The translations under genes and the position numbers were made by a program. Below are positions 19,456 through 35,702 of a stretch of DNA of 64,000 nt, piece by piece; positions within the stretch are counted from its first letter, which is position 1, and every line of letters starts with the position of its first letter. The notes beneath the pieces are model-generated. The model was not told where the DNA came from and did not search any database. It worked only from the letters and a program-made list of their open reading frames with translations. The stretch comes from an uncultured Alistipes sp. GTDB lineage: Bacteria > Bacteroidota > Bacteroidia > Bacteroidales > Rikenellaceae. The DNA lies in assembly GCA_944323075.1 (NCBI GenBank), contig CALURC010000013.1, forward strand, positions 107,461 through 171,460. The letters are read 5' to 3'.

Positions 19456-19572
19456 ATCTATTTTCTGATAAAAGCAATTTTTTTAGTGGTGAAAATAGGC
19501 AATGAATGGTATTTTATGGAGTTTTTAGAGCTTTTTGAGTGCTTTTATGGATTTATGTCGAAAAGAATTGTT

Positions 19573-19580
19573 TATATTTG
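19573..19580 (+). promoter_or_regulatory. -7 element of the lacI-kduID promoter
   Basis: TATATTTG, 33 bases before the ATG at 19614. It falls inside the longer open frame that begins at 19539, which is why that earlier ATG is rejected as the start of the regulator. Confidence 0.7.
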
Positions 19581-19592
19581 CAAACGGTTGCA
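19579..19592. promoter_or_regulatory. LacI-type operator in front of lacI-kduI-kduD
   Basis: TGCAAACGGTTGCA, palindromic except for one A/C pair in each half, with central CG. It overlaps the end of the -7 element. Thirteen bases (19580-19592) are identical, inverted, to the operator at 19434-19446, so one regulator can control both directions and itself. Confidence 0.78.
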
Positions 19593-19613
19593 TATTTTAC
19601 CGAATGGTCTGAA

Positions 19614-20636
19614 ATGAGAACGAAAAAGATATCGATCTATGATATTGCTCAGCAGTTGGGGGTTTCGACTTCGACCGTATCCCGTGCGTTGCAAAATAAT
19701 CCGGCGATCAGTGAAAAAGTTCGAGAGCGGGTTCGGGAAACAGCCGAGGCGTTGGGATATAAGCCCAATTTGTTTGCGGTTAATCTGCAACGAGGAACAA
19801 CACGAACCATAGGTGTTGTGGTTCCGATGGTGAGCCGAAACTTTTTTTCTATGGCTATCGATGGGATCGAGGAAGCGGCTTCGCAGCGTGGTTATGACGT
19901 GATGATCTTTCAATCGCGGAATGAACGGGAACGCGAAGAGCGGATTATTAACAGTCTTTCGAATGGTAAGGTAGATGGTGTAATCGCTTCTTTAGCTTCA
20001 GATGGCGGCGATTATGCGTATTACAAAGTTTTGTCGCGTTATGGAACTCCGCTGGTGTTATTTGATCGTTATGTCTCCGGACTGGAGGCAGGAACCGTGT
20101 TGCTTGATGACTATCGCGGAGCGTTCGATACGGTCGAACACCTGATTGATCAGGGATGCCGTCGGATTTATCACTATGCCGGTTCGCAACAGGTTAGTAT
20201 ATGGCAAAATCGGCGGAAAGGGTATGAAGAGGCGTTGCGAAAGCATGGAATAGAACCTGAACCGGATTGGATTACCATAGGTGCAACGACTGAGGAGGGA
20301 GGCTATCAGGCGATGGAACGATTATTTGCATCCGGAAAAGTTTTGCCTGAGGCGATCTTTTTTGCTGGAGATTATGCTGCTTTGGGTGCTTTTCGGTCGA
20401 TGCGTAGACATGGAATCCGGGTTCCTGAAGATGTAGCTTTGGCCGGATTTGCGAATGAACCGTTTTGCGAACTGATCACACCGAGTTTTACCTCCGTCGA
20501 ACAGTTTGGTTACAGGATGGGAAATACAGCAGCACAGATGTTGTTGGACAAACTTGATGGAGCTCCTTATATGGATGTAGTCATCTCGCCCAGGCTCATT
20601 GTCCGTGATTCTTCGTTATGGGCAAAAGGGAAATAG
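19614..20636 (+). CDS. LacI-family transcriptional regulator of the uronate locus
   Basis: DNA-binding repressor with an N-terminal LacI helix-turn-helix (ISIYDIAQQLGVSTSTVSRAL) and hinge (NPAISEKVRERV), then a periplasmic-binding-type effector domain opening TIGVVVPMVSRNFF. An ATG at 19539 would add 25 residues, but the promoter and operator lie inside that stretch. The ATG at 19614 also places the HTH at the usual distance from the N-terminus, giving 340 residues. It is first in an apparent operon with kduI (42-base gap), kduD and a DUF4861 gene. The operator in its own leader implies autoregulation. The effector is probably a uronate intermediate (KDG-like), an inference from pathway. Confidence 0.9.
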   Translation: MRTKKISIYDIAQQLGVSTSTVSRALQNNPAISEKVRERVRETAEALGYKPNLFAVNLQRGTTRTIGVVVPMVSRNFFSMAIDGIEEAASQRGYDVMIFQSRNEREREERIINSLSNGKVDGVIASLASDGGDYAYYKVLSRYGTPLVLFDRYVSGLEAGTVLLDDYRGAFDTVEHLIDQGCRRIYHYAGSQQVSIWQNRRKGYEEALRKHGIEPEPDWITIGATTEEGGYQAMERLFASGKVLPEAIFFAGDYAALGAFRSMRRHGIRVPEDVALAGFANEPFCELITPSFTSVEQFGYRMGNTAAQMLLDKLDGAPYMDVVISPRLIVRDSSLWAKGK

Positions 20637-20678
20637 TTACGAAATACAATTCATTTAATGGTTTAAAAAATAACAGAT

Positions 20679-21515
20679 ATGCAGTATGAAGAACGTTATG
20701 CCGTACATCCGGAAGATGCGAAGAGGTACGACACGGAGCGACTCCGAGAAGAGTTTTTGATTGAAAAGTTGTTCGAACCGGACGATATCCGCTTGGTCTA
20801 TTCGGCTTATGACAGACTGATTGTAGGTGGAGTCATGCCCGTGAAACAGACGTTGGAATTGACTCCGATCGATCCTTTGAAGGCCCCCTATTTTTTACAT
20901 CGACGTGAGCTGGGAATCATCAACGTAGGAGGGAAAGGTGTTGTTTGTGCTGGTGATGCCGAGTTTAAACTCGATTATAAAGAAGCGTTGTATCTGGGAA
21001 GCGGAGACCGGATGATAACTTTCCGTTCGGAAGATGAATCGGCACCGGCCCTGTTTTATATCAACTCGGCACCGGCTCATCGGAACTATCCGGATCGTAA
21101 GGTAACCAAGGCCGATGCCGTGGTGGCCCATATGGGTTCGCTCGAGGATTCGAATGAGCGGACGATCAATAAGTTGATTGTTAGTCAGGTACTTCCTACA
21201 TGTCAGTTGCAAATGGGTATGACCGAACTTAATACCGGTAGTGTATGGAATACGATGCCTGCTCATACGCACAACCGACGGATGGAGGCCTATTTCTATT
21301 TCGAGTTGCCGGAGGAGGCTGCCGTATGTCATCTTATGGGGCAACCCCAGCAGACCCGTCACATCTGGATGCACAACCATCAGGCCGTGTTGTCTCCCGC
21401 GTGGTCGATTCATTCGGCTTGTGCAACGCACAACTATACGTTTATATGGGGAATGGCCGGAGAGAATCTCGATTACGGGGATATGGATACTTGTGCAGTA
21501 ACCGATTTAAAATAG
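20679..21515 (+). CDS. kduI: 5-dehydro-4-deoxy-D-glucuronate isomerase
   Basis: Converts 5-keto-4-deoxyuronate, formed from unsaturated uronic acid, to 2,5-diketo-3-deoxygluconate. The bicupin zinc ligands are all present and fall at the positions known for the E. coli enzyme: His196 and His198 in AHTHN, Glu203, and His245. Length 278 matches the family exactly. kduD follows after 6 bases. This placement next to a GH88 hydrolase gives a complete path from unsaturated disaccharide to KDG, apart from the lyase. Confidence 0.96.
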   Translation: MQYEERYAVHPEDAKRYDTERLREEFLIEKLFEPDDIRLVYSAYDRLIVGGVMPVKQTLELTPIDPLKAPYFLHRRELGIINVGGKGVVCAGDAEFKLDYKEALYLGSGDRMITFRSEDESAPALFYINSAPAHRNYPDRKVTKADAVVAHMGSLEDSNERTINKLIVSQVLPTCQLQMGMTELNTGSVWNTMPAHTHNRRMEAYFYFELPEEAAVCHLMGQPQQTRHIWMHNHQAVLSPAWSIHSACATHNYTFIWGMAGENLDYGDMDTCAVTDLK

Positions 21516-21521
21516 CAGACG

Positions 21522-22316
21522 ATGAACATTCAGGAACTTTTTTCATTAAAGGGTCGCGTCGCGTTGGTGACCGGTGCGACACACGGTTTGGGCATGGCAG
21601 TAGCTACGGCGTTGGCCGAGGCAGGAGCAACATTGGTAGTAAACGGACACTCGGCCGATCGATTGGAGCAAGCATTGAAAGCCTATCGTGAGAAAGGAAT
21701 CGATGCTAAAGGATATTTGTTTGATGTAACAGACGAACAGGCGGTCATTGAGTTTGTTGGACGGATCGAGCGCGAAGTCGGACCGATTGATATTTTGGTG
21801 AACAATGCGGGGATCATCAAACGGATTCCGGCATTGGATATGACTCTTCCGGAGTGGAACGAAGTCATTACCACCGATCTGACCTCACCGTTTTTGATGT
21901 CGCGGGCCGTAGCAGCAGGAATGATTCAGCGTGGAGGTGGCAAGATCATCAATATGTGTTCGATGATGAGTGAAGTGGGGCGTGATAGTGTTACCGCTTA
22001 TGCAGCGGCAAAAGGCGGACTGAAAATGCTGACCAAGAATTTGGCGACCGAGTGGGCGAAATATAACATTCAGGTCAATGGAATCGGGCCTGGCTATTTT
22101 GCTACGGCACAGACGGCACCGATCCGTCAGAATGGAAATCCGTTTAATGAGTTTATTATCAGTCGGACACCTGCATCCCGTTGGGGCGATCCCGAGGATT
22201 TGGCCGGAACGGCCGTATTCCTTGCCTCTAAGGCATCGGATTTCGTGAACGGCCACATTTTGTATGTTGACGGTGGAATTTTAGCCTCGCTTGGACGAGC
22301 ATCAAATGAGAATTAA
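21522..22316 (+). CDS. kduD: 2-dehydro-3-deoxy-D-gluconate 5-dehydrogenase
   Basis: Short-chain dehydrogenase that reduces 2,5-diketo-3-deoxygluconate to 2-keto-3-deoxygluconate with NAD(P)H. Seen: the nucleotide motif TGATHGLG near residues 18-25, NNAG near 91-94, a catalytic Ser near residue 147, the YAAAK catalytic pair, and a C-terminal YVDGGILASLG. Length 264 is typical. Neighbours kduI and GH88 make KduD more likely than another SDR. KDG kinase and aldolase, needed to finish the pathway, are not in the window. Confidence 0.93.
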   Translation: MNIQELFSLKGRVALVTGATHGLGMAVATALAEAGATLVVNGHSADRLEQALKAYREKGIDAKGYLFDVTDEQAVIEFVGRIEREVGPIDILVNNAGIIKRIPALDMTLPEWNEVITTDLTSPFLMSRAVAAGMIQRGGGKIINMCSMMSEVGRDSVTAYAAAKGGLKMLTKNLATEWAKYNIQVNGIGPGYFATAQTAPIRQNGNPFNEFIISRTPASRWGDPEDLAGTAVFLASKASDFVNGHILYVDGGILASLGRASNEN

Positions 22317-22331
22317 TAATGATCAAAGGTT

Positions 22332-23432
22332 ATGAAACGGATTTTATTTGCAGTTTTGTCGTGTGCATCGATCTGTTTTTCGTGTACACGCGACATGGTG
22401 GTCGATGTGACCAACCCGATTGATTCGGATCGATCAGGAGAGACGGTCGAGGTATCGTGGAGCGAAGTGCAGACCGCTTTGCCAGGAGCAGTCGCCGGAA
22501 AACTCTTTGTGCTGAACCAGGCAGGAGATACGCTCCCCTGTCAAGTGATAACCGCAGGAATGGATCAACCTCAGAGTCTGATCTTTCAGGTATCCCTGCC
22601 AGCCAATGCAACCGAAAGTTTCCGGATTTGCAGCAGCGATGATTCGGTCCGGTTTGAATCGCAGGTGTTCGGCCGTTTCGTGCCCGAACGCATGGATGAC
22701 TTTGCATGGGAGAATAACCTGATTGGATACCGTATGTACGGTCCGGCTCTTCAGGCTACCGGAGAGATCAGCAACGGTATCGATGTGTGGCAGAAGCGCA
22801 CCTCGAAATTAGTTGTAGACCAATGGTATAAGAACGGAAACTATCATGTTGACCATGGTGAAGGACTCGACTGTTATAAGGTGGGTCGGACGCTCGGGGC
22901 TGGAGCCATGGCGCCCTATCTGAATGATACGATATGGCTTGGGAACAACTATGTTACCTATAAGGTATTGGATAACGGGCCGATCCGTGTGTCGTTTGAA
23001 TTGACTTATGCGCCCTATTTGGCAGGAAGTGATTCGGTCGTTGAGAAACGTATCATTTCACTGGATGCCAATACCCGATTCAATCGTGTGACCGAAATCT
23101 ATGATCGCTCGATGCCAGTTGCAGCCGGAATCGTGTTGCGTGAAGGGGGTGAACGGGCTGAGACGGAACACTACGTAGCTTATTGGGAGCCTGAATGCGG
23201 AGCCGACGGAAATACGGGAATCGGAATGATTTTCCCGGAAGTATCGGTAACGAGTCTGGAAAATTGCGGACACTTGTTGGCAAAGACCTCTGTTGAAGCA
23301 AATCAACCTTATACCTACTATACAGGAGCAGGATGGAGTAAAGCTGGTACGGCGAATGCCGATGCTTGGTTCGAACAGGTTAATGAGGCTTATGTGAAAT
23401 TGTCGAATCCGTTGCAGGTTAAGATCCGATAA
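22332..23432 (+). CDS. DUF4861 lipoprotein of the uronate operon
   Basis: A 366-residue exported protein with a lipoprotein signal (candidate lipobox CFSC at residues 15-18). The body is beta-rich and begins VDVTNPIDSDRSGETVEVSW. Conserved-looking stretches include FAWENNLIGYRMYGPAL, WYKNGNYHVDHGEGLDCYKVG and YVAYWEPECG, which match the DUF4861 group. Its enzymatic role is not established to my knowledge. The fold is likely a galactose-mutarotase or lyase-like beta-sandwich, with a possible catalytic role for HVDHGEG. It is last in the lacI-kduI-kduD operon, followed by a terminator. Confidence 0.72.
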   Translation: MKRILFAVLSCASICFSCTRDMVVDVTNPIDSDRSGETVEVSWSEVQTALPGAVAGKLFVLNQAGDTLPCQVITAGMDQPQSLIFQVSLPANATESFRICSSDDSVRFESQVFGRFVPERMDDFAWENNLIGYRMYGPALQATGEISNGIDVWQKRTSKLVVDQWYKNGNYHVDHGEGLDCYKVGRTLGAGAMAPYLNDTIWLGNNYVTYKVLDNGPIRVSFELTYAPYLAGSDSVVEKRIISLDANTRFNRVTEIYDRSMPVAAGIVLREGGERAETEHYVAYWEPECGADGNTGIGMIFPEVSVTSLENCGHLLAKTSVEANQPYTYYTGAGWSKAGTANADAWFEQVNEAYVKLSNPLQVKIR

Positions 23433-23756: not shown

Positions 23757-23789
23757 AAAGGAGCAGTCCACTCAATGGACTGCTCCTTT
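23757..23789. terminator. terminator of the cytochrome/Fe-ADH cluster
   Basis: A 14-bp perfect stem (23757-23770 with 23776-23789) with A/T flanks on both sides, 34 bases past the Fe-ADH stop on the minus strand. It can work in both directions. Confidence 0.85.
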
Positions 23790-23823: not shown

Positions 23824-24990
23824 CTACCGGAACGATTTCTCGAAAATATTGATCAGTTCCGGATTGCTCAAGGGACGAGGATCGAGATAGAAGAGCATGG
23901 TCATCGTTTCACGGGCGTTAGCAACGATTCTCGGGAAATCGGCTTCCGTCGCACCCCAATCGGAGAATTTGAGGTCGTAAACACCGCAATCTTTTTGCAG
24001 TTGCACCAATGCACGGATAAAGTCTTCGGGATCGTCGCTTCTCTTTCCGGTCATGGCTTGAGCCATCTCCCTGTATCGTTCCGGAACATCGTTGAGGAAA
24101 CTCGACAGATAGGCTTCCGAAATGATAATCAGTCCGGCCCCGTGAGGTAATTTCGGGAAAAGTCCGCTCATGGCATGTTCCAAAGCATGTTGAGAGATGG
24201 TACATGAGGTTGCCTCGACCATGCCGGCCAACATGCTGCCTAAAGCTACATTCGCACGTGCTTCCAAATCTGTGCCATCTTTGACGGCTTTGGTCAGGTT
24301 GGAGGCAATCAGCTCGATGCTTTTCAACGAATACATTTGACTGAGTGGACTCGCGATGTTGGCCAAGTAGCCTTCGACGGAGTGGAACAGGGCATCGAAA
24401 CCCTGGTAAGCGGTCAGATGTGGGGGGACCGATACCATCAGTTCCGGGTCGACGATCGAAATGGTCGGGAAGGTTTCGTCCGTTCCGAATCCGATCTTCT
24501 CTTCTCCGTTTGAAATGACGGTCCATTGGTCAGCTTCGGTTCCCGTTCCGGCTGTCGTGGGGATAGCGATGATCGGGAGGACTCCCTTTGTGATGGGTTT
24601 TGCCTTGCCGCTGCCTCCGCTGATGTAATCCCAGTAGTCGCCGTCGTTGCGGGCCATGATAGCGATCGATTTGGCGGAATCAATGGAGCTACCGCCTCCT
24701 AAACCGATGATGAAGTCGCATCCCTCTTCCCGGCAGATCGTAGCGGCTTCCATCACATGTTCGCGGATCGGATTGGGAAGTATTTTATCGTAGATCACGT
24801 AAGGGATTTTTTGAGCATCGAGAGCTTGGGTCAGTTTGTCCAGGTACCCGAATTTTCGCATTGAAGTACCTGAAGAGATGACGATCATGGCTTTACGTCC
24901 CGGCAATTTTTCTGTTGCCATACGTTTGATTTCTCCATTCCCGAAAAAGATGCGGGTTGGAATGTACTGTCCAAAAACTTGTTTTACCAT
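23824..24990 (-). CDS. iron-containing (group III) alcohol dehydrogenase
   Basis: Cytoplasmic NAD(P)-dependent oxidoreductase acting on an alcohol or aldehyde. Nucleotide motif GGGSSIDSAK at 98-107. Metal ligands can be placed at Asp199 and His203 (GFDALFHSVEGY), His268 (SQHALEH) and His283 (PHGAG). Length 388 is normal and all ligands are present. There is no signal peptide. It is last in a five-gene minus-strand run after a chorismatase-like gene (123-base gap). Substrate unknown; the neighbours (cytochromes, RidA-like enzyme) do not match classic ethanol or butanol clusters. Confidence 0.9.
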   Translation of the reverse strand: MVKQVFGQYIPTRIFFGNGEIKRMATEKLPGRKAMIVISSGTSMRKFGYLDKLTQALDAQKIPYVIYDKILPNPIREHVMEAATICREEGCDFIIGLGGGSSIDSAKSIAIMARNDGDYWDYISGGSGKAKPITKGVLPIIAIPTTAGTGTEADQWTVISNGEEKIGFGTDETFPTISIVDPELMVSVPPHLTAYQGFDALFHSVEGYLANIASPLSQMYSLKSIELIASNLTKAVKDGTDLEARANVALGSMLAGMVEATSCTISQHALEHAMSGLFPKLPHGAGLIIISEAYLSSFLNDVPERYREMAQAMTGKRSDDPEDFIRALVQLQKDCGVYDLKFSDWGATEADFPRIVANARETMTMLFYLDPRPLSNPELINIFEKSFR

Positions 24991-25113
24991 ATCTTGAGGT
25001 TTTAAAAAATGTTTGTGTCTGATTGGGTGAAAATTTGATGCCTGTTCTTATTCACTATTCAATAAACGAGTCAAGTACCGGATATAATATGTGTCTTTGA
25101 TAAGCATCTGTAT

Positions 25114-26277
25114 TTATACTTTATTGCAAAGTTGAAAATAAGCGGTTCCCTCCATTTCAATCAGTAGCTCGTCCCGACAAATGTCAGCCTTCATAAAGAT
25201 GATAGGCAATGAACCGTATCGCTTTTTGAGTATTTGTTCGACAGCGGGACGGTCGTGCGGATGTTTTAAGTAGATCCGAAGGTGGGAGAGTGAAGCATCC
25301 TTTGGGACCGACATACCCGATTGCCGTAAATTAGCCGCAGAGATCAGGTATTCGATGTTTTCACAAGTCATGATCGTCTGTCGGGCGATGTCTGCTTCAC
25401 GGAGACTCTCTTCCCCCCGAATTGCTGCTGTACCGGAAATGTAGACCATAGCTTCATCTCCATACGATATGGCTTTTGCCCGCTCGAATTTCGGTGTTGT
25501 TTTTTCGGCTAAAAAAGAGTCTTTGTTGCCGATCAGCACCTGTTGGGAATATCGATGGGCTGCTACCTGAAGAGGATTGTCCACTCGGACTATCTTTGTC
25601 TCAGCGCTTTTACCTGTCGGATAAAGCGCATCCAGCCCGATCAATACGCCCCCGGCCTGAGTTCCGATTCCCGTAGCGGCAGGGTATCCGTTTCCCCATG
25701 TGCTTTGTTGGTAAAAACGGCTGCGCGCGTCATTAAAGATTTGATAGCGTTGACGGCCGGAGGTCTCTGTCTCGGTGATGCGCTCGATGTAGTTCCATTG
25801 ACGGACGATCGACTCTAAAGGGAGTTGCTCCTGTCGCATTAAAGTTCCTAACTTTGCAAAAACCTCTTCCGCCTGTTGCTGAAAGTTGTTCCCAGAGACA
25901 TCTCCTTGTACCCCTCCGACGAACAGTCGTTTTGCCTGAGGACTCTCTACGGTGATATAACAGGTATCTCCGGATTTTTTATAATGGATTTGCTCTGTCT
26001 TTTCAAGGACAACTTCGTGAACCTCTAAAGTCAGACCGACTTCACAGGGGGATTGAGCCACATAGCTGAAAACGGGAGCTTCCGTACCAAAACGGCGGAG
26101 AACCTCTTTCCGGGCGATATCTCGCTGTTCGACGTAGCTGTCGTTGTTTTTTGCGGCTCCGAAAAGTACCCAGCGGACAGGAATTCCTTCCGGACGGCAG
26201 GCATCGAAGATGTGCGTGATCATTTGCTCGAAGGAATTCTCGTTGGTTTCGTATAGTTTGTAAGTTAAGTGTCGCAT
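25114..26277 (-). CDS. chorismatase (FkbO/Hyg5)-like / RidA-fold enzyme
   Basis: A 387-residue cytoplasmic protein made of two related RidA-like halves. YPAATGIGTQAGG near residue 200 resembles the substrate loop of FkbO/Hyg5-type chorismatases, and the second half ends with HLRIYLKHPHDRPAVEQIL, common in Rid-type folds. Such enzymes remove pyruvate from chorismate, but many relatives in Bacteroidota have no known substrate. It sits between a c-type cytochrome and an Fe-ADH in one strand run (76 and 123-base gaps). Chorismate hydrolysis is possible but not shown; imine deamination (Rid activity) is the alternative. Confidence 0.6.
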   Translation of the reverse strand: MRHLTYKLYETNENSFEQMITHIFDACRPEGIPVRWVLFGAAKNNDSYVEQRDIARKEVLRRFGTEAPVFSYVAQSPCEVGLTLEVHEVVLEKTEQIHYKKSGDTCYITVESPQAKRLFVGGVQGDVSGNNFQQQAEEVFAKLGTLMRQEQLPLESIVRQWNYIERITETETSGRQRYQIFNDARSRFYQQSTWGNGYPAATGIGTQAGGVLIGLDALYPTGKSAETKIVRVDNPLQVAAHRYSQQVLIGNKDSFLAEKTTPKFERAKAISYGDEAMVYISGTAAIRGEESLREADIARQTIMTCENIEYLISAANLRQSGMSVPKDASLSHLRIYLKHPHDRPAVEQILKKRYGSLPIIFMKADICRDELLIEMEGTAYFQLCNKV

Positions 26278-26353
26278 AATTTGTTTTTTGAAAAACGGGA
26301 ATCTGGTCTGAACAAGCCAGCTTCCTGCGTTGACTCCTAATCGGATGCGGAGG

Positions 26354-28147
26354 TTACAACGATAAAATATACTCTTCCAAAGCCTCTATCTCTTTTTCGG
26401 AGAGATCGGAGGTTGTGCCGTGCCGGTCACCTTCGTTGAAGCGGGTCAACACTTCCCGAATCGTCTTCGCACTTCCGTTGTAGAGGTAAGGGGCGGTTCT
26501 CCATACTTCTTTCAAGGTTGGAGTGTCGAATTTTGTCCCTTCACACTCGTCGATTCCGGTTCCGACATCGTACATCGCTTTATCCGTGTAGTAGGCCCCG
26601 TTGTGGCAATGGATACATCCTGCCTTTTCAAAGATGCGCTCACCCTGCTGTGCCTTCTTCGATAATTCACCGTTAACTCGATGGGGGGAGACCAACGGTT
26701 CAAGGCTTCGCAGGTATTGGTCCATACAGGCGGCCTCCTCTTCCGGACGGTCCGTGAACAGGATGTAGCGGATGCCTGAACGTACCGCCTTTTCGGCATT
26801 GACCCGGATTCCGGTGATCATGGCAGGAGGGGTCTCGTGAGAGTAGAGCATGCTTTTGGAATTTTTGAAGTTACCGATACCGTCGTTGATCAGGTCCCAG
26901 TTCAATCCATCGGCACGTGCCCCGGGGTGGCATGTGACGCAGCTTTGCCAATTCTGGAAGCAGATATCGGCATCGGCGAACAGCATTTCCCCGCGTCGTA
27001 TCGGATCCATTTCCGGCTCCTCACCCAATGCAACCTCCCTGCCGTTTACCGGAAGCAATGGTTCGACGATGCTTAGCGTCCCCGAGAAGTAGCAGGATGC
27101 GAATACCTTCCCGTCTTTTTCGATCAGTTTCCGGGGCCCCTTGCCCGGCAGCGAGATGCGGTTTTTGACCGAAGCGAAAAAGGTCAGGTCGTTAGCGATG
27201 ATCGTGTTTTTCGGAGCATTTTCGATTTTTGGGAACAACTCTTTGAGTGATACCGCAATAACCTCATGCGTTCCGGCGATGGCTACGTACAGATAACGGC
27301 CGTCCTCCGATACGGTCATGCCTGCCGGGTTGGCTGCACCGCGATTGACGTTGTCCAGCAGGATCGTTGTGTAGTAGCTTCGGGTGCGCATGTCGATGAT
27401 CGACACGGCATTGGTGTTCATCCATCCCCGTTCAAGTTGGGTCGTCGGGATTTGGAATCGTGATTGTACGTGTGTCACGAAGAGGTAGTTTCCGTCTTTC
27501 GAGAAGCAGACATCTTCGATTGAATGGGTGCCGTTGGTAAAGGGAATGTGGCACAACACTTCGGAGGTAGCTGCATCGATCAGCGAAACCTCAGCTGAGA
27601 TCATTGTGTCCAACGCCGACATGAAGGGAAGAAAATTTCCAACGGCAACGATCGTTTGGTCCGGGGACAGGGCTACGGATTTCGGTTCGCGGATCAAAGG
27701 AATGCGGACCAGCTCTTTGCCCTTTTGCGGGTTGACGACCGAAAGGTCGTTTGAAAAACGGTTGGCAACCCATGCACGCGTTCCCTCTTCGTTGACGCAT
27801 ACGGCCGAAGGATAGGCTCCGACAGCGACAGACTTCTTGACAGAGAAGTTCGATGGATCCAAAACCTTTAAGCTTCCGGCCGGATCGTATTCCGTAGCGA
27901 CCAACACCTGTCCGTTGCCCGAGTAGGCAAAATCGGAGGCTTCGAAAGTAAGAGGAACGGTCTCCAGGAGCCTCTCCTTGTCTAAATCGATACGGGCGAT
28001 CGCTTGCGCCGTCGAAAGCAGTACCACGCCATTTTTTGTTGTAGGGTCTACCGCGATGCGTGTAGGCGAGAGGTAAGTAGGCTGGGCTGTCGAGACGGAT
28101 ACTGCTGCGACGACTGCAAACAAACAAGTTATAATGTGTTTTTTCAT
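26354..28147 (-). CDS. YncE-type beta-propeller fused to di-heme cytochrome c (CCP/MauG-like)
   Basis: A secreted electron-transfer or oxidase protein. The open frame starts at 28201, but the ATG at 28147 begins a good signal peptide (MKKHIITCLFAVVAAVS). The first 350 residues are propeller repeats (PSAVCVNEEGTRAWVANR, PKSVALSPDQTIVAVGN). Two heme sites follow, CVTCH (421-425) and CIHCH (529-533) counted from the long frame. TPTLKEVWRTAPYLYNGSA is the signature of the cytochrome c peroxidase/MauG group. The fused propeller is less common than the stand-alone enzyme. It is 50 bases from the HzsA-like gene and probably its partner. Heme attachment needs a Ccs/Ccm system not present in this window. 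Confidence 0.85.
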   Translation of the reverse strand: MKKHIITCLFAVVAAVSVSTAQPTYLSPTRIAVDPTTKNGVVLLSTAQAIARIDLDKERLLETVPLTFEASDFAYSGNGQVLVATEYDPAGSLKVLDPSNFSVKKSVAVGAYPSAVCVNEEGTRAWVANRFSNDLSVVNPQKGKELVRIPLIREPKSVALSPDQTIVAVGNFLPFMSALDTMISAEVSLIDAATSEVLCHIPFTNGTHSIEDVCFSKDGNYLFVTHVQSRFQIPTTQLERGWMNTNAVSIIDMRTRSYYTTILLDNVNRGAANPAGMTVSEDGRYLYVAIAGTHEVIAVSLKELFPKIENAPKNTIIANDLTFFASVKNRISLPGKGPRKLIEKDGKVFASCYFSGTLSIVEPLLPVNGREVALGEEPEMDPIRRGEMLFADADICFQNWQSCVTCHPGARADGLNWDLINDGIGNFKNSKSMLYSHETPPAMITGIRVNAEKAVRSGIRYILFTDRPEEEAACMDQYLRSLEPLVSPHRVNGELSKKAQQGERIFEKAGCIHCHNGAYYTDKAMYDVGTGIDECEGTKFDTPTLKEVWRTAPYLYNGSAKTIREVLTRFNEGDRHGTTSDLSEKEIEALEEYILSL

Positions 28148-28251
28148 TTCGATCCTCATTTTAATAGAGAAACTTCGGGTGAAAACAAGAGAGAAAGGCA
28201 ATCTTCCCGTTTGCGGATTTCCCGATACGGGAAGATGCCTCTCCGGAGAGT

Positions 28252-30780
28252 TTATTCCATAATCGGGAATACGACTTCGCCACGTTTCTGAGCTTCGGTA
28301 TCTTCGTAAGTTCCGTAGAAATCCGAATTACAGTCGAGCCATATGGCGACCCGACGCATCTCTTCGGGCGAAAGTTTGACACCCTTGTGTCCCTGTTCGA
28401 GCAGATAGTAGAGCGGAGAGGCCATAGCTCCGAACTTTCCTGGATAGGTTTTGGATTCGACGTATCCGCCTTGTCCGTCGTAGAAAAAGGCGTAGGGCCG
28501 CAAGTTGCGATAGGAGACGGACCAATGATCCTCATCGATCGTTCCCGTGAGATCCAGTTTAGTTCCTGCTCCGTGGCACGAAACGCAATGCTTGTCCCAG
28601 ATGGGTTGGACCAAACGGGGGTAGTTAAAGGGTGCGGTCCCGTCCATTTCGGGTTTGATGGTCGACGGTTTACGCTTCATGGCTATCGCTGTGCTGTGTA
28701 GTGGCGGAGCCATTTTCCGGTCGTCGTGACACCCGATGCAGCTCAAATTCTCGTTCGGAGCGACATAAATGTCTGAACGCATCGACAGAACGGCCCGCCC
28801 CTTTTCGTCGAGGGCTTGGAAGAAGACCGGGACATAAGGTTTCAGGTAGAAGTTTACGCTGCCGTCCTCTTCGACGGGAACAGTTCCCAGAACGAATCGG
28901 GCGTTTTTTTCCGTGCCGTAACCGATCGGCGGATTGTTGCGTCCTGGCGTACTTTTGGGTAGTACCTGTATGATTCGCAGCTCTTTGATCTTTGTACTGT
29001 CGGGCCATTGGCGGCGGCTTTCATATACGTTCATGATCGATACGATCCCCGGATCGTATTTTTCTCGTTTGATGTTCTTTTTTGCTTCGGTCAGCAGATG
29101 CGGCCGGTCGAGGTTCCAGCGTTTTTGATTCATGTCGACCGGAAGCGGCTGTACCTGATCCGGAATGACCGGAGGTGTCGGGCGGGCCTTGAGCGGAATG
29201 GGGCTCAGACAGGCGATCTTCGGGTCGCGGTAGATCAGCTCCAGGTTCCCGAAAGCGTCGAGCAGATAGATGCCGTAATTCTCCACCGATTTATCTTCGG
29301 CCGTGGGATCAGGGTACCCGAAAACGCAGAGGTAATAGTTTTCACTCAGCGGCCAAGGGGTAGAGTAGGAGGCCTCGCGGCAGAAATAGCCGTATTCCGA
29401 TTCGGGGAATCGTTCGTCGGGTGTCACGATTTTGACATTCGACATGGCATCATTGTCGTCTACATTCGGGTCGACGATAACGATTGATCCGTAAGCTTGT
29501 CCGTGGTGTGCAGTGGCTAAAGCCATGAGTTTCTGTGATCCGGGAATTGCCCTGATCTCCATCTCCATACAGGGACGATCGTACCAGTTTAGCGGGTAGT
29601 TACCGTGCAGGGCAATCGCATTACGTCCGTCCGGGGTAGTTGTCCATGGATGATGGGCCTGAAAGAATCCTCGATCCACATAATCCCAACGGGTATAGAC
29701 AATCATACCGTCGTGAAGGATACTGGGGTGCCATTCGCATGTTTCGTGATGGCTGAGGCGCTCCATTTTGCTGCCGTCGGCGTTCATGCGGTGCAGGGTG
29801 TAGGAGAACCACGGGGCGCCTCCATCGTATCCCATGTGGCAGCGACCGAAGCCTCCTCGTCGATCAGAGATGAAGACGATCTGTCCGCTGGGGAGCCAGC
29901 AAGGGTCGAAATCGTTGAACACACCGTGTGTCAGCTGTTTGAGCTCTGTCCCGTCGGTGTTTACGCTGAAAATGTGCCACGCGTTCTTGTCGGTAAAAGA
30001 GCTTTCGAAACCGCTGTAACTGTAATATCCGGCTGTGTCCTCTTCTGCGCATACGGTGGGTTTGTAGCCTGCAGCTTCGGTGAAGGCAAACAATATTTTG
30101 TTTCCATCGAACGATAGCTCGGGTGAGAGGTAGGCACCTTCTGGCATCTTGCCTTCAAGCAGGTTGTTGGCTGTCGGACTGTCACCGAAAGCATTTTCCA
30201 AAATAAAGAGACCTTCGTTTTCTTTGGTGGCATGTATGCCGTAGTATTGTCCGGCCATGTGGTCCCCGAACGGTTCGTTCCGCGGATTTTTCTTGTGTTT
30301 GACAAAAAGTATTCGGTCAAAGTCAAGCAACGGATTCGAAAAAGCCAGTTCCCGTCGGAATTGTACCAGATCCATATAGACCTTTTTCCGTTCTTCCGGA
30401 TCTTTGGTTTTTCGGACAGTCATTTCGAAGCGGATCAGGTCGTCTTTGAAACGGGAGGTTTCATTTCCCGGCAATTTCGACAGATCATCGAACAGGGCAC
30501 GTGTACGTCGCATCACTATATCCAGCGGATCGGTGTCGGTAAAAGTCGTTTGATAGAGTGCTTCGGGATGCCAAACGTGGTCCAATGTGGCAAATTTGCT
30601 TTTGGGAATCTGTCCGTTCCGTAAGCCTTCGATACGGTCGAACTGCATAAGTGCTTCGGTTTGAAGTTCTTCTTCGCGCGATGGAGTCTGAGCATCAAGA
30701 TGCTGAGGTGCACAGAATGCCATTGCTAACACCAAAGTCCCTATCACATTTTTTGTCGGAAAAATACAAGGTTTCATCAT
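28252..30780 (-). CDS. HzsA-like periplasmic c-type cytochrome
   Basis: An 842-residue exported protein (signal peptide about residues 1-30, ending HLDAQ). A TolB-like propeller is visible (SPELSFDGNKILFAF, NTDGTELKQLTHG, LPSGQIVFISDRRGG). Two CxxCH heme sites follow, CIGCH at 681-685 and CVSCH at 732-736. The order of propeller, beta-rich middle and two C-terminal hemes is that of proteins annotated as hydrazine synthase alpha subunit-like. True anammox hydrazine synthesis is not implied: the partner subunits are absent and the group is widespread in other bacteria. The two cytochromes and their enzyme neighbours suggest a periplasmic oxidation of unknown substrate. Confidence 0.78.
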   Translation of the reverse strand: MMKPCIFPTKNVIGTLVLAMAFCAPQHLDAQTPSREEELQTEALMQFDRIEGLRNGQIPKSKFATLDHVWHPEALYQTTFTDTDPLDIVMRRTRALFDDLSKLPGNETSRFKDDLIRFEMTVRKTKDPEERKKVYMDLVQFRRELAFSNPLLDFDRILFVKHKKNPRNEPFGDHMAGQYYGIHATKENEGLFILENAFGDSPTANNLLEGKMPEGAYLSPELSFDGNKILFAFTEAAGYKPTVCAEEDTAGYYSYSGFESSFTDKNAWHIFSVNTDGTELKQLTHGVFNDFDPCWLPSGQIVFISDRRGGFGRCHMGYDGGAPWFSYTLHRMNADGSKMERLSHHETCEWHPSILHDGMIVYTRWDYVDRGFFQAHHPWTTTPDGRNAIALHGNYPLNWYDRPCMEMEIRAIPGSQKLMALATAHHGQAYGSIVIVDPNVDDNDAMSNVKIVTPDERFPESEYGYFCREASYSTPWPLSENYYLCVFGYPDPTAEDKSVENYGIYLLDAFGNLELIYRDPKIACLSPIPLKARPTPPVIPDQVQPLPVDMNQKRWNLDRPHLLTEAKKNIKREKYDPGIVSIMNVYESRRQWPDSTKIKELRIIQVLPKSTPGRNNPPIGYGTEKNARFVLGTVPVEEDGSVNFYLKPYVPVFFQALDEKGRAVLSMRSDIYVAPNENLSCIGCHDDRKMAPPLHSTAIAMKRKPSTIKPEMDGTAPFNYPRLVQPIWDKHCVSCHGAGTKLDLTGTIDEDHWSVSYRNLRPYAFFYDGQGGYVESKTYPGKFGAMASPLYYLLEQGHKGVKLSPEEMRRVAIWLDCNSDFYGTYEDTEAQKRGEVVFPIME

Positions 30781-30831
30781 TCAGGTTTTTGGTTAGTCGT
30801 TTCGGGGTGAGTTTAATAGGGAATAGAAGAT

Positions 30832-31863
30832 TTATCGGTTAATTATATGTGGGGTTAATATGCAACTTTCATTTGTCGGTTCGCCTTTCTCAATTCGTGA
30901 CAATAACATATCTACTGCAGCTTTCCCCATTTCTTGAATCGGTTGATGAACATATGGAATTTTTAGATTAGGGGCGAAATCGGTTCGATCGAAACAAGCA
31001 ATCTGCATTTGAGGCCCGATCGGAATTCCTAATTGAATTAGGGTTTCTATCCCGTACATTGCCAGTCCTCCGGTTGCGAAAAAAAGGCCATCCACGTCGA
31101 AAGTGTCCCGATTGCTGAATAATTTTCGGATTGTTTCCCTCGTCTCTTGCTGGGTATTTGCATATCCGATTTTATAGATTACAGGTTGTGCGGCGTCAGG
31201 ATATTTTTCCAGAGCTTTTACGTAGCCCTTTTGTCGCTCTTGCATGTGCATGAGCTGATCGTCATAAAGCAGCATGGCAATCCGTCTGCATCCCTTTTCG
31301 AGTAGGCGTGAGACGATTTGGAATGAAGCTCCGAAGTTGTCTATGATGACCCGATTCATTTTTAAATCCGGAAAATATCGGTCGGCCAATACGATAGGGA
31401 AGCCGGTTTCAATCAAACGTACGAACTCTTGTTCGGTATGTTGGATTGGGACGACGATCATTCCGTCCACTTGTCGGTCGATCAGCATTTCGACAGTCGG
31501 CTTAAATTGTGCTCTGTCTTCACCAACGCTGGCGATTACGACCAGATATCCCTTATGTAGAGCGTGTTGTTGAACGTGAAAAGCAAGTGTTGCAAAAAAA
31601 CGGTCCGAAATGTCTGCCACCACGAGTGCAATAGTCCGTGTATGTCCAGTGCGTAAGCTGCGAGCCAACTCATTGAACCGGTAGTTCTCGCGATGGGCGA
31701 CCTCCTTGATCCTTGCTGCAACAACAGAACTGATTCTTCCCTCTTTTTCTTTCCCGTTTAGGACAAACGAAACAGTAGTCCGCGATACTCCGACTTGATC
31801 GGCAATGCTTTGCATCGAGACTCTGGGTTTCGTATGGAATTTATATGATTTGTCGTTGGCCAT
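30832..31863 (-). CDS. LacI-family regulator of the cytochrome cluster
   Basis: N-terminal HTH (VSMQSIADQVGVSRTTVSFVLNGK) preceded by a 14-residue basic tail, then a sugar-binding-protein-like effector domain (TRTIALVVADISDRFFATLA, DGMIVVPIQ, DFAPNLKIPYVHQP). Length 343 is normal. The HzsA-like gene begins 51 bases after its stop on the same strand, so regulator and cytochromes are probably one transcript. LacI proteins usually sense sugars or sugar phosphates, which hints that the cluster handles a carbohydrate-derived substrate. A possible operator lies at 31967-31982. Confidence 0.88.
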   Translation of the reverse strand: MANDKSYKFHTKPRVSMQSIADQVGVSRTTVSFVLNGKEKEGRISSVVAARIKEVAHRENYRFNELARSLRTGHTRTIALVVADISDRFFATLAFHVQQHALHKGYLVVIASVGEDRAQFKPTVEMLIDRQVDGMIVVPIQHTEQEFVRLIETGFPIVLADRYFPDLKMNRVIIDNFGASFQIVSRLLEKGCRRIAMLLYDDQLMHMQERQKGYVKALEKYPDAAQPVIYKIGYANTQQETRETIRKLFSNRDTFDVDGLFFATGGLAMYGIETLIQLGIPIGPQMQIACFDRTDFAPNLKIPYVHQPIQEMGKAAVDMLLSRIEKGEPTNESCILTPHIINR

Positions 31864-32297: not shown

Positions 32298-32302
32298 CTC
32301 TG

Positions 32303-32385
32303 TGCCCAGGAAAGGACTCGAACCTTCACGTCATTGCTGACACTAGTACCTGAAACTAGCGCGTCTACCATTTCGCCACCTGGGC
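32303..32385 (-). tRNA. tRNA-Leu(CAG)
   Basis: Minus strand cloverleaf with acceptor GCCCAGG/CCTGGGC, the class II long variable arm (TGTCAGCAATGACG) and anticodon loop TTCAGGT in stem CTAGT/ACTAG. Discriminator A at 32303; CCA not encoded. Reads CUG codons. Confidence 0.94.
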
Positions 32386-32442
32386 TTTATCCATCTTTGT
32401 GTGTTTTGACCACGATGGAAAAGTTTTTTTGGCAGTTTTGCG

Positions 32443-32527
32443 TGCCCAGAACAAGACTCGAACTTGCACGTCGTAAACCGACACTACCCCCTCAAAGTAG
32501 CGTGTCTACCAATTTCACCATCTGGGC
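32443..32527 (-). tRNA. tRNA-Leu(GAG)
   Basis: Minus strand cloverleaf with acceptor GCCCAGA/TCTGGGC, long variable arm, T-loop GTTCGAGTC and anticodon loop TTGAGGG (anticodon GAG) in a stem closed by a T-G pair. It lies 57 bases upstream of tRNA-Leu(CAG) on the same strand and is probably co-transcribed. Confidence 0.93.
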
Positions 32528-34727: not shown

Positions 34728-35615
34728 TTATTGTCCATTCTGGAAAATATGGAAGATAGCTTCTCCGATACGAGCGATTAGATCGTAGTTCGTTTCGCTT
34801 GTTTCTGTGGAATTGGCAACCAGAATGGCGTAGGCAATTTTTTGATATCGAGATATTTTCATGATTCCTACATCATTGATGGCTGCGATAACTCCTTCTT
34901 CGTTACGACCAGAATGTCCGGTTTTTCGAGCAACTATTACATCGTTAGGAAGATATTTTTTGATGCTTCCGGTTGATATGTTGGCCATTGTTTCCCAAAG
35001 GAAATTATAGGATTCGGTGTTGAGTAGCTTTTTTTCCCCGAACAGTTCTAAAAGTTGAATAATCCCTTTGGGTGTGGTCCAGTTGTCAAACTGGACATTC
35101 CAAGAGGACTGTATTTCATGTTCGCTATTTTTGATTTGTATGCCTGTCATTCCTTTTCGGTAGAGGTAGTTTTGTACCGAATCCGGACCTCCTGCTTTTT
35201 TAAGTAGTATGTCGCTGGCATTGTTGTCGCTTTGTGCGATGACATATTGAATGAGACGAGCGAGGGGCAATGCGGTTCCATTAGGATAATTCTCTCGAAG
35301 CGGACTCCATGTATTCGGGTGAAGTTCTTTAGATTGTATTACGAGTGTGTCTGACAGGGCATTGTTTTGTTCAAGCAGTGCCAGAACAATAGGAAATTTG
35401 TATACACTTTGCATCGGGAATCGTTGATTTCCGTTGATGAAAAAAGACTTCCCTGTTTGAAAATCGTATATTCCTAAGCCTAATGTTAAATTCTTTTCTG
35501 AAACGATCTCTTTTATAGCTTCCCGAATCTCTTTTTTTTGAGCATACGTTGGGGATATATGTGATAGTAAAAATACTATACATAAGGTAAGGTGTAGGAA
35601 CCGTATCCCGTACAT
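34728..35615 (-). CDS. class A beta-lactamase (subclass A2-like)
   Basis: Hydrolyses beta-lactam antibiotics in the periplasm. The open frame extends to 35684, but the ATG at 35615 starts a clean signal peptide (MYGIRFLHLTLCIVFLLSHI...AQ). In long-frame numbering: S93-V-Y-K96 (SxxK), S152-D-N154 (SDN), Glu188 in SEHEI as the Glu166 equivalent, and K254-T-G256 (KTG). The motif spacing and the WNVQFDNWTTP stretch after Glu188 recall the extended A2 enzymes of Bacteroidota (CfxA/CepA/PER-like). All catalytic motifs are intact. It is not flanked by insertion sequences here, so it looks chromosomal rather than recently acquired. The spectrum cannot be read from sequence. Confidence 0.93.
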   Translation of the reverse strand: MYGIRFLHLTLCIVFLLSHISPTYAQKKEIREAIKEIVSEKNLTLGLGIYDFQTGKSFFINGNQRFPMQSVYKFPIVLALLEQNNALSDTLVIQSKELHPNTWSPLRENYPNGTALPLARLIQYVIAQSDNNASDILLKKAGGPDSVQNYLYRKGMTGIQIKNSEHEIQSSWNVQFDNWTTPKGIIQLLELFGEKKLLNTESYNFLWETMANISTGSIKKYLPNDVIVARKTGHSGRNEEGVIAAINDVGIMKISRYQKIAYAILVANSTETSETNYDLIARIGEAIFHIFQNGQ

Positions 35616-35702
35616 GTTGCGAAAATATTTTATAAGAGTGATATACGGATGATGATTTAGAAAGGGGTATACGATCGATGTCAATAAGATCTCTTATATG
35701 GA

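Follow-up and report, generated by a model that had tools for sequence, protein, structure and literature searches.

Five consecutive minus-strand open reading frames (ORFs) in a 64,000-nucleotide stretch of an uncultured Alistipes sp. genome (contig CALURC010000013.1; the whole stretch is called the window here) encode a set of proteins like the α subunit and a fused β-γ subunit of hydrazine synthase (HZS), with four CxxCH heme sites, in the company of a LacI-family regulator, a chorismatase-fold enzyme and an iron-containing alcohol dehydrogenase (Fe-ADH). Computation shows domain homology to all three HZS parts, conserved heme sites, and a recurrent linkage of such genes with chorismatase-fold and sugar enzymes. 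The reading we prefer, which we put at slightly below an even chance, is that the secreted HZS-like heme complex oxidises a sugar-like substrate in the periplasm and that cytoplasmic partner enzymes finish the conversion.

The genome that contains the window comprises 2.5 Mb in 19 contigs. The ORFs and their translations give the cluster order LacI, HzsA-like, HzsBC-like, chorismatase-fold, Fe-ADH, with intergenic gaps of 51, 50, 76 and 123 bases (the 50-base gap grows with a later start); positions and short gaps agree with an earlier reading of this DNA made from the sequence alone (the sequence-only reading). The family assignments of all five proteins were confirmed by Pfam and NCBIfam models.

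Homology of the two cytochromes to HZS

The HzsA-like gene (28252..30780, minus strand) encodes an 842-residue homologue of the HZS α subunit consisting of a propeller part, an HZS_alpha domain (PF18582, 5.8e-20) and two c-type heme sites. Its family profile matches the α chain of the Kuenenia stuttgartiensis enzyme (5c2v_A) at 2.6e-45, and the same chain is the best PDB match of its AlphaFold model (mean pLDDT 74.0; E 9.9e-25, TM 0.53 by query and 0.57 by target). The motifs CIGCH (28726..28740, minus strand) and CVSCH (28573..28587, minus strand) align with CSGCH and CAMCH of 5c2v_A and are the equivalents of the heme αI and heme αII sites, respectively.

The adjoining gene (26354..28201, minus strand) encodes a 615-residue protein with a β-propeller (residues ~45-380) followed by a di-heme domain (residues ~398-615). 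This protein had been taken as CCP/MauG-like in the sequence-only reading, an identity that has to be given up: the best NCBIfam model is that of the fused HZS β-γ subunit (NF052342, 3.5e-45, cut-off not reached), and phmmer matches 5c2v_B (1.1e-24) and 5c2v_C (1.7e-22) in consecutive halves of the sequence. With HzsB and HzsC homology fused in this protein and an HzsA homologue beside it, the two constitute an HZS-like α plus β-γ set. The best PDB match of the AlphaFold model (mean pLDDT 79.3) is 5c2v_B, with a TM of 0.86 by target; the γ-like heme region of the model is of low confidence, and no γ chain occurs among the 50 best structure matches listed, so that the γ homology is one of sequence only. 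The equivalents of the heme γI and heme γII sites are CVTCH (26927..26941, minus strand) and CIHCH (26603..26617, minus strand), aligned with CASCH and CLECH of 5c2v_C.

Scores for the curated NCBIfam HZS models lie below their cut-offs (42 of 800 bits for α, 103.6 of 560 for β and 86.8 of 625 for γ). The translations contain two CxxCH motifs in each cytochrome, as do those of a relative in the same genus (locus L086), and both N-termini are hydrophobic and resemble signal peptides by eye, in agreement with the sequence-only reading. Among 97 HzsA-like proteins, two CxxCH motifs are present in 81, three in 10, and one or none in 6. A long HzsA-like protein (from L108, the one scanned) bears an NPCBM domain.

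Residues that distinguish the complex from HZS

In HZS, Tyr591 of the α subunit serves as ligand of heme αI (PMC12758564; PMC12607021), and CCP/MauG proteins and HZS-like clades I-III have Trp at the γ-144 position (PMC12758564). The window proteins have Lys689 at the position of α-Tyr591 and Ile462 at that of γ-His144. In residue counts based on text patterns rather than structures (this holds for all counts over 91, 97, 107, 113 or 114 sequences), Tyr occupies the α-Tyr591 position in 0 of 91 HzsA-like sequences and His the γ-His144 position in 0 of the 107 HzsBC-like sequences (of 114) that fit the pattern; the latter position is Ile or Val in 81 of the 107 and Trp in 2. The equivalent of γ-Cys165, which provides the third heme link, is not conserved in two family alignments; 24 of 113 sequences have a Cys somewhere in this region. 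Both heme γII ligands are retained, His533 and His594 being invariant across a 20-sequence alignment, and the second γII His was found by text pattern in 98 of 114 sequences.

Since both α-Tyr591 and γ-His144 are absent, the Alistipes complex is not a hydrazine synthase, and HZS proper was ruled out as its identity. A plain CCP/MauG peroxidase was likewise rejected, because the HzsBC fusion is the better match; Ile462 stands where CCP/MauG enzymes have the catalytic Trp.

The chorismatase-fold enzyme

The fourth gene (25114..26277, minus strand) encodes a 387-residue FkbO/Hyg5-type chorismatase-fold enzyme of the RidA superfamily (PF21168 and PF01042; 5ag3 at 8.5e-29) that scores 135.9 bits with TIGR04444 and does not reach its cut-off of 325. 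The enzyme has the Hyg5-type residues G282, C367 and E374 (Hyg5 Gly240, Cys327 and Glu334), and a comparison of 34 sequences showed the equivalents of Hyg5 R128, R154, R220, G240, C327, R328 and E334 to be identical in all 34. Of these sequences, 15 belong to the window's order, 5 of them lacking HZS-like neighbours, and the other 19 are from named loci whose titles do not mention Bacteroidota. The Glu and the Cys are described as catalytic or characteristic (PMC7170507). A comparison of the chorismatase-like protein with plasmids returned 18 records, 3 covering at least 80%, all below 60% identity.

Chorismatase-fold genes also occur in other surroundings. By eye, one lies amid arabinose-type genes (isomerase, epimerase, kinase and aldose epimerase; L119:4409-11844); another lies between GH127 and a 3-keto-disaccharide hydrolase domain protein, in a stretch without HZS-like genes (L112:7451-12232).

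Distribution and linkage of the core genes

HzsA-like proteins were matched in 12 of 247 genomes of the window's order (E 1e-10), HzsBC-like proteins in 23 of 101 genomes of its family (E 1e-5), and the HzsBC-like gene is present in 2 of the 9 genomes of the genus. Among named genomes, a scan matched at least 581 relatives; the best 80 constitute the named loci used below, and by record titles these belong to Bacteroidota, Planctomycetota, Verrucomicrobiota and kin, Hydrogenedentota, Omnitrophota, Armatimonadota, Spirochaetes, Acidobacteriota and Nitrospira kin. Among the matches listed, the nearest named HzsBC-like relative is that of Candidatus Alistipes merdigallinarum (96% identity). The fetched loci were selected for matching one of the genes, so that their percentages are not population estimates; named and unnamed loci may overlap, and many contigs are fragments of metagenome-assembled genomes (MAGs), which makes absences near contig ends uncertain. 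The profiles behind the downstream, sugar-gene and 112-locus counts were built partly from the loci counted.

The chorismatase-fold gene belongs with the HzsBC-like gene, and the association recurs in several phyla. In the same family, 17 of 20 HzsBC loci (the 20 fetched of the 33 places matched) carry a chorismatase-like gene beside the HzsBC-like gene. By profile, a chorismatase-like gene lies directly downstream on the same strand in 48 of the 112 loci with an HzsBC-like ORF longer than 450 residues (one contig is included twice), in 47 cases within 215 bases. It lies within 1.5 kb in 22 of the 67 named loci having at least 1 kb downstream, and an independent tblastn count gave a chorismatase-like match in 22 and an HzsA-like match in 52 of the 80 named loci. 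Approached from the other side, 7 of the 21 genomes of the order with a strong chorismatase match (E <1e-39) have an HzsBC-like neighbour (the window, L106-L110 and L124).

By its own terms, the sequence-only reading would have been refuted had the genes not been neighbours in related genomes. The HzsA-like, HzsBC-like and chorismatase-like genes do adjoin in relatives; the complete five-gene order was seen in two genomes of the genus only, the second being L086 (with L143, likewise of 26,347 bases, apparently one contig, and therefore counted once). Identity between L086 and the window is 80% for LacI, 96-98% for the HzsA-like, HzsBC-like and Fe-ADH proteins, and 89% for the chorismatase-fold enzyme. 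Subsets of the five genes recur in other families and phyla: a LacI-type gene also adjoins the set in L090 and L094, an Fe-ADH gene in L088 and L186, and an IclR-type regulator in others. Because the order recurs in L086 and partial sets recur in other families and phyla, it is not a product of chance.

Loci L139 and L140 contain short HzsA-like proteins (~480 residues) beside very distant HzsBC-like proteins (24% identity), which form another subfamily.

Sugar enzymes beside the genes of relatives

The long operon form is found in L096, from the same family, in the order HzsBC, chorismatase-fold, isomerase, DhaK, DhaL, LsrF, propeller, HzsA; other orders occur elsewhere. The isomerase, a protein of ~230 residues, is a homologue of D-lyxose/D-mannose isomerase (7nzo, 7.9e-27; 2y0o, 1.3e-23); it is present in 22 of the 33 fetched loci and in 14 of the 80 named ones. 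By eye, most of 11 aligned isomerase homologues have a lipobox or an RR leader; the one in L207 has neither. The trio of DhaK, DhaL and LsrF is complete in 19 of the 33 fetched and 7 of the 80 named loci with HzsBC, the seven being titled Bacteroidales, Hydrogenedentes/Hydrogenedentota (3), Verrucomicrobia, Phycisphaerae and one unassigned bacterium. The curated LsrF cut-off was passed by all 5 proteins tested, and the expected motifs are present in 26 of 26.

Other loci associate the pair with different enzymes. In L131 and L186, HzsA and HzsBC are paired with an FGGY kinase and DeoC; the kinase reaches the xylulokinase cut-off in L131 and 359 of 380 bits in L186, and L131 also carries GH43 and GH2, L186 an Fe-ADH-type gene. 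A SusD protein and a TonB-receptor plug protein adjoin the set in L091, and a PTA/PTB-type transferase fused to a butyrate-kinase-type kinase is a neighbour in L207. The neighbours of HzsA in L108 include a cytochrome c assembly protein, whose family is represented in five fetched loci. The flanks of ten named loci, inspected by eye, indicate no single substrate.

Regulator, dehydrogenase and flanking sequence

The LacI-family regulator is encoded by the first gene of the cluster (30832..31863, minus strand; PF00356 and PF13377; TIGR02417 at 165 bits, under its cut-off of 389.55) and the 388-residue Fe-ADH by the last (23824..24990, minus strand; PF00465, 1.6e-49; no equivalog cut-off reached). 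Past the last gene lies an inverted repeat of 14 pairs (23757..23789, listed on the plus strand by the hairpin scan), a possible terminator. Read as minus-strand sequence, the repeat has a stem with TTT at its end and ATCATACC after it. The sequence-only reading had a terminator at the far end of the cluster, where termination is plausible, not strong. Terminator-like sites in the scan are rarer than in shuffled sequences (5 versus a mean of 12.4), and promoter-like sites are not above chance in the promoter scan (12 versus 9.6).

Adjoining the cluster on the plus strand (window 19539-23432) are a second LacI-type gene and then ORFs that are KduI- and KduD-like by eye (uronate); the neighbours in L143 are similar. 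Two tRNA-Leu genes lie upstream of the cluster (window 32302-32527) and are present in L143 too, and an ORF at window 34728-35684 resembles a class A β-lactamase by eye.

Discussion

In the preferred reading, the HzsA-like and fused HzsBC-like proteins would form a complex by analogy with HZS. The complex would oxidise a carbohydrate- or polyol-like substrate in the periplasm, with electrons passing via the hemes to an acceptor; the oxidised product would then be taken up into the cell, where the chorismatase-fold enzyme might hydrolyse or tautomerise an enol-type intermediate. In relatives with the long operon, DhaK-DhaL would phosphorylate the dihydroxyacetone-like end and the LsrF-type thiolase would split the product into dihydroxyacetone phosphate (DHAP) and acyl-CoA; the transferase/kinase fusion in L207 would fit an acyl-CoA product. 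Alistipes would instead process the product with Fe-ADH, under the control of LacI. The sequence-only reading had proposed periplasmic redox chemistry on a sugar-derived or aromatic substrate with cytoplasmic follow-up. The heme step, the follow-up enzymes and the sugar-type context in relatives lend that outline partial support; its substrate may be of either kind. The c-type heme attachment machinery on which that reading made its proposal depend is available, as one protein of the window genome lies above the Cytochrom_C_asm family cut-off. We rejected cytochrome c assembly as a feature specific to carriers, since all 9 genomes of the genus have Cytochrom_C_asm and 2 of the 9 have the HzsBC-like gene. 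NrfA was not found in the window genome.

A number of observations weigh against a sugar-oxidising role. Among the 67 named loci with downstream room, 45 have no chorismatase-like gene within 1.5 kb; of the 43 named loci flanked by 3 kb on either side, 16 lack an HzsA-like gene within 6 kb; and any of DhaK, DhaL or LsrF is found in just 9 of the 80 named loci. Conversely, 14 of the 21 strong chorismatase-like matches in the order (L111-L123 and L125) have no HzsBC-like gene in the examined stretch, gene neighbourhoods of the chorismatase-like gene vary between loci L111-L125, and a second chorismatase type beside DHOR oxidoreductases (see below) fits a cofactor role equally well. In the window genome, searches gave no match to DhaK or to the isomerase, with control genomes G274 and G255 positive for both, and none to LsrF in a search made without a control genome; the relatives' pathway is therefore not transferable to this genome, and a pathway identical to theirs was rejected. 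A tree built from 113 HzsBC-like proteins groups the window protein with that of L144 (local support 0.998), a Bacteroidales MAG contig that carries the isomerase, DhaK, DhaL and LsrF and, in the examined stretch, no chorismatase-like gene. As L144 has the lower-branch genes and the window genome gives no match to them, Alistipes may have lost or replaced the lower branch, with Fe-ADH in its place.

It is unlikely, in our estimate, that the chorismatase-fold enzyme genuinely functions as a 3-hydroxybenzoate synthase and that the aromatic acid or a derivative acts as mediator, ligand or cofactor of periplasmic di-heme enzymes, the sugar genes of relatives being secondary. Such a role would accord with the conserved Hyg5 residues, and it fits the finding that chorismatase-fold genes recur next to periplasmic heme enzymes of different kinds. 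The window genome contains a second gene of this fold (L224:690-6548, contig C16), located behind those for imelysin, a DHOR di-heme oxidoreductase, porin O/P and a one-CxxCH protein, and the chorismatase-like gene of L113 adjoins PSCyt2/PSD1. In 9 of the 10 other matched genomes (the fragment in G059 was left out), the imelysin/DHOR row beside the second type is clear in 3 (G105, G088 and G055); its weakness in 1 and absence in 5 argue the other way, as do the TIGR04444 score of less than half its cut-off and the isomerase, kinase and thiolase of the relatives' operons, which look catabolic. The position of the L112 gene between the 3-keto-disaccharide hydrolase domain protein and GH127 speaks against a purely heme-related role. 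To our knowledge, none of the five cluster genes is a hydroxybenzoate user (no search for such genes was made elsewhere in the genome), which also counts against this explanation.

We consider it quite improbable that the complex is a protective peroxidase or an enzyme reducing nitric oxide or hydroxylamine that is carried along with metabolic genes. The kinship of the γ-like domain with CCP/MauG and the retained γII ligands (both His residues in 20 of 20 aligned sequences, the second His in 98 of 114) are what such an enzyme might show; the γ-His144 position is mostly Ile or Val, with Trp in 2 of 107, and the operon partners are metabolic enzymes. That the five genes are mere neighbours with no common task is very improbable: the exact order is confined to two genomes of one genus and the regulator and dehydrogenase vary elsewhere, as this would predict, whereas the three-gene core recurs, tightly spaced, in other families and phyla. 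We give scarcely any credence to synthesis of hydrazine or another N-N bonded product as in anammox HZS, which the α, β and γ homologues with four heme sites would suggest and which the residues speak against (Tyr in 0 of 91 and His in 0 of 107 at the α-Tyr591 and γ-His144 positions, γ-Cys165 not conserved).

A wider form of the sugar-oxidation reading is more doubtful than the reading itself: HZS-like complexes might be widespread periplasmic sugar oxidases that open a route of isomerase, heme complex, chorismatase-fold enzyme, dihydroxyacetone-type kinase and LsrF to DHAP and acyl-CoA, anammox HZS having been recruited from such an enzyme. The recurrent partner genes in several phyla provide a concrete handle on the role of non-anammox HZS relatives and bear on the origin of hydrazine synthase. 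One form of the HzsA/HzsBC pair is present in a named strain, Puteibacter caeruleilacunae JC036 (L186), where the question is testable. Sugar oxidation, if true, would mean that bacteria of gut and sediment have an additional, heme-based entry step in their use of carbohydrates. Matches to hzs-like genes in metagenomes should not be taken as evidence of anammox.

Comparison with known systems

The relatives' operons share LsrF equivalogs with the E. coli lsr (autoinducer-2) catabolic system and differ from it in having DhaK-DhaL, not LsrK, as the adjoining kinase; LsrF had no match in the window genome (the search without control mentioned above). The chorismatase-fold enzyme is of the same family as the FkbO/Hyg5 chorismatases (5ag3, 4bps), with their catalytic residues and with Gly and Cys as in Hyg5; unlike them, it falls under the family cut-off, and its context, as far as seen, is not a polyketide or pigment cluster.

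Pairs of HZS-like α and fused β-γ genes outside anammox bacteria were published in 2023 and 2025 (PMC10732223; PMC12758564); the former concerns hzs-like genes of Phycisphaerae and had already put forward alternative substrates. In the text available, neither paper gives an established function for the non-anammox relatives. The Alistipes pair resembles these (clades I-IV of PMC12758564; PMC10732223) in the adjacency of the α and fused β-γ genes and in the absence of key HZS residues. It differs from clades I-III in that these have Trp at γ-144 (PMC12758564), whereas the Alistipes-type family has mostly Ile or Val; the family may overlap clade IV of that study. The available main text of PMC12758564 nowhere uses chorismat-, sugar or carbohydrate, and a literature search of a limited collection found no paper on this gene set. 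The HZS-like pairs themselves are thus already known, and the part that we have not found described is the partner set of chorismatase-fold and sugar enzymes.

Compared with anammox HzsABC (Kuenenia stuttgartiensis, 5c2v), the Alistipes set lacks the equivalents of α-Tyr591, γ-His144 and γ-Cys165, its α gene precedes the β-γ gene, and its relatives are linked to sugar enzymes. In common with that enzyme it has homologous α, β and γ domains, four CxxCH sites and both γII His ligands, and it shares the β-γ fusion reported for Scalindua (PMC12758564).

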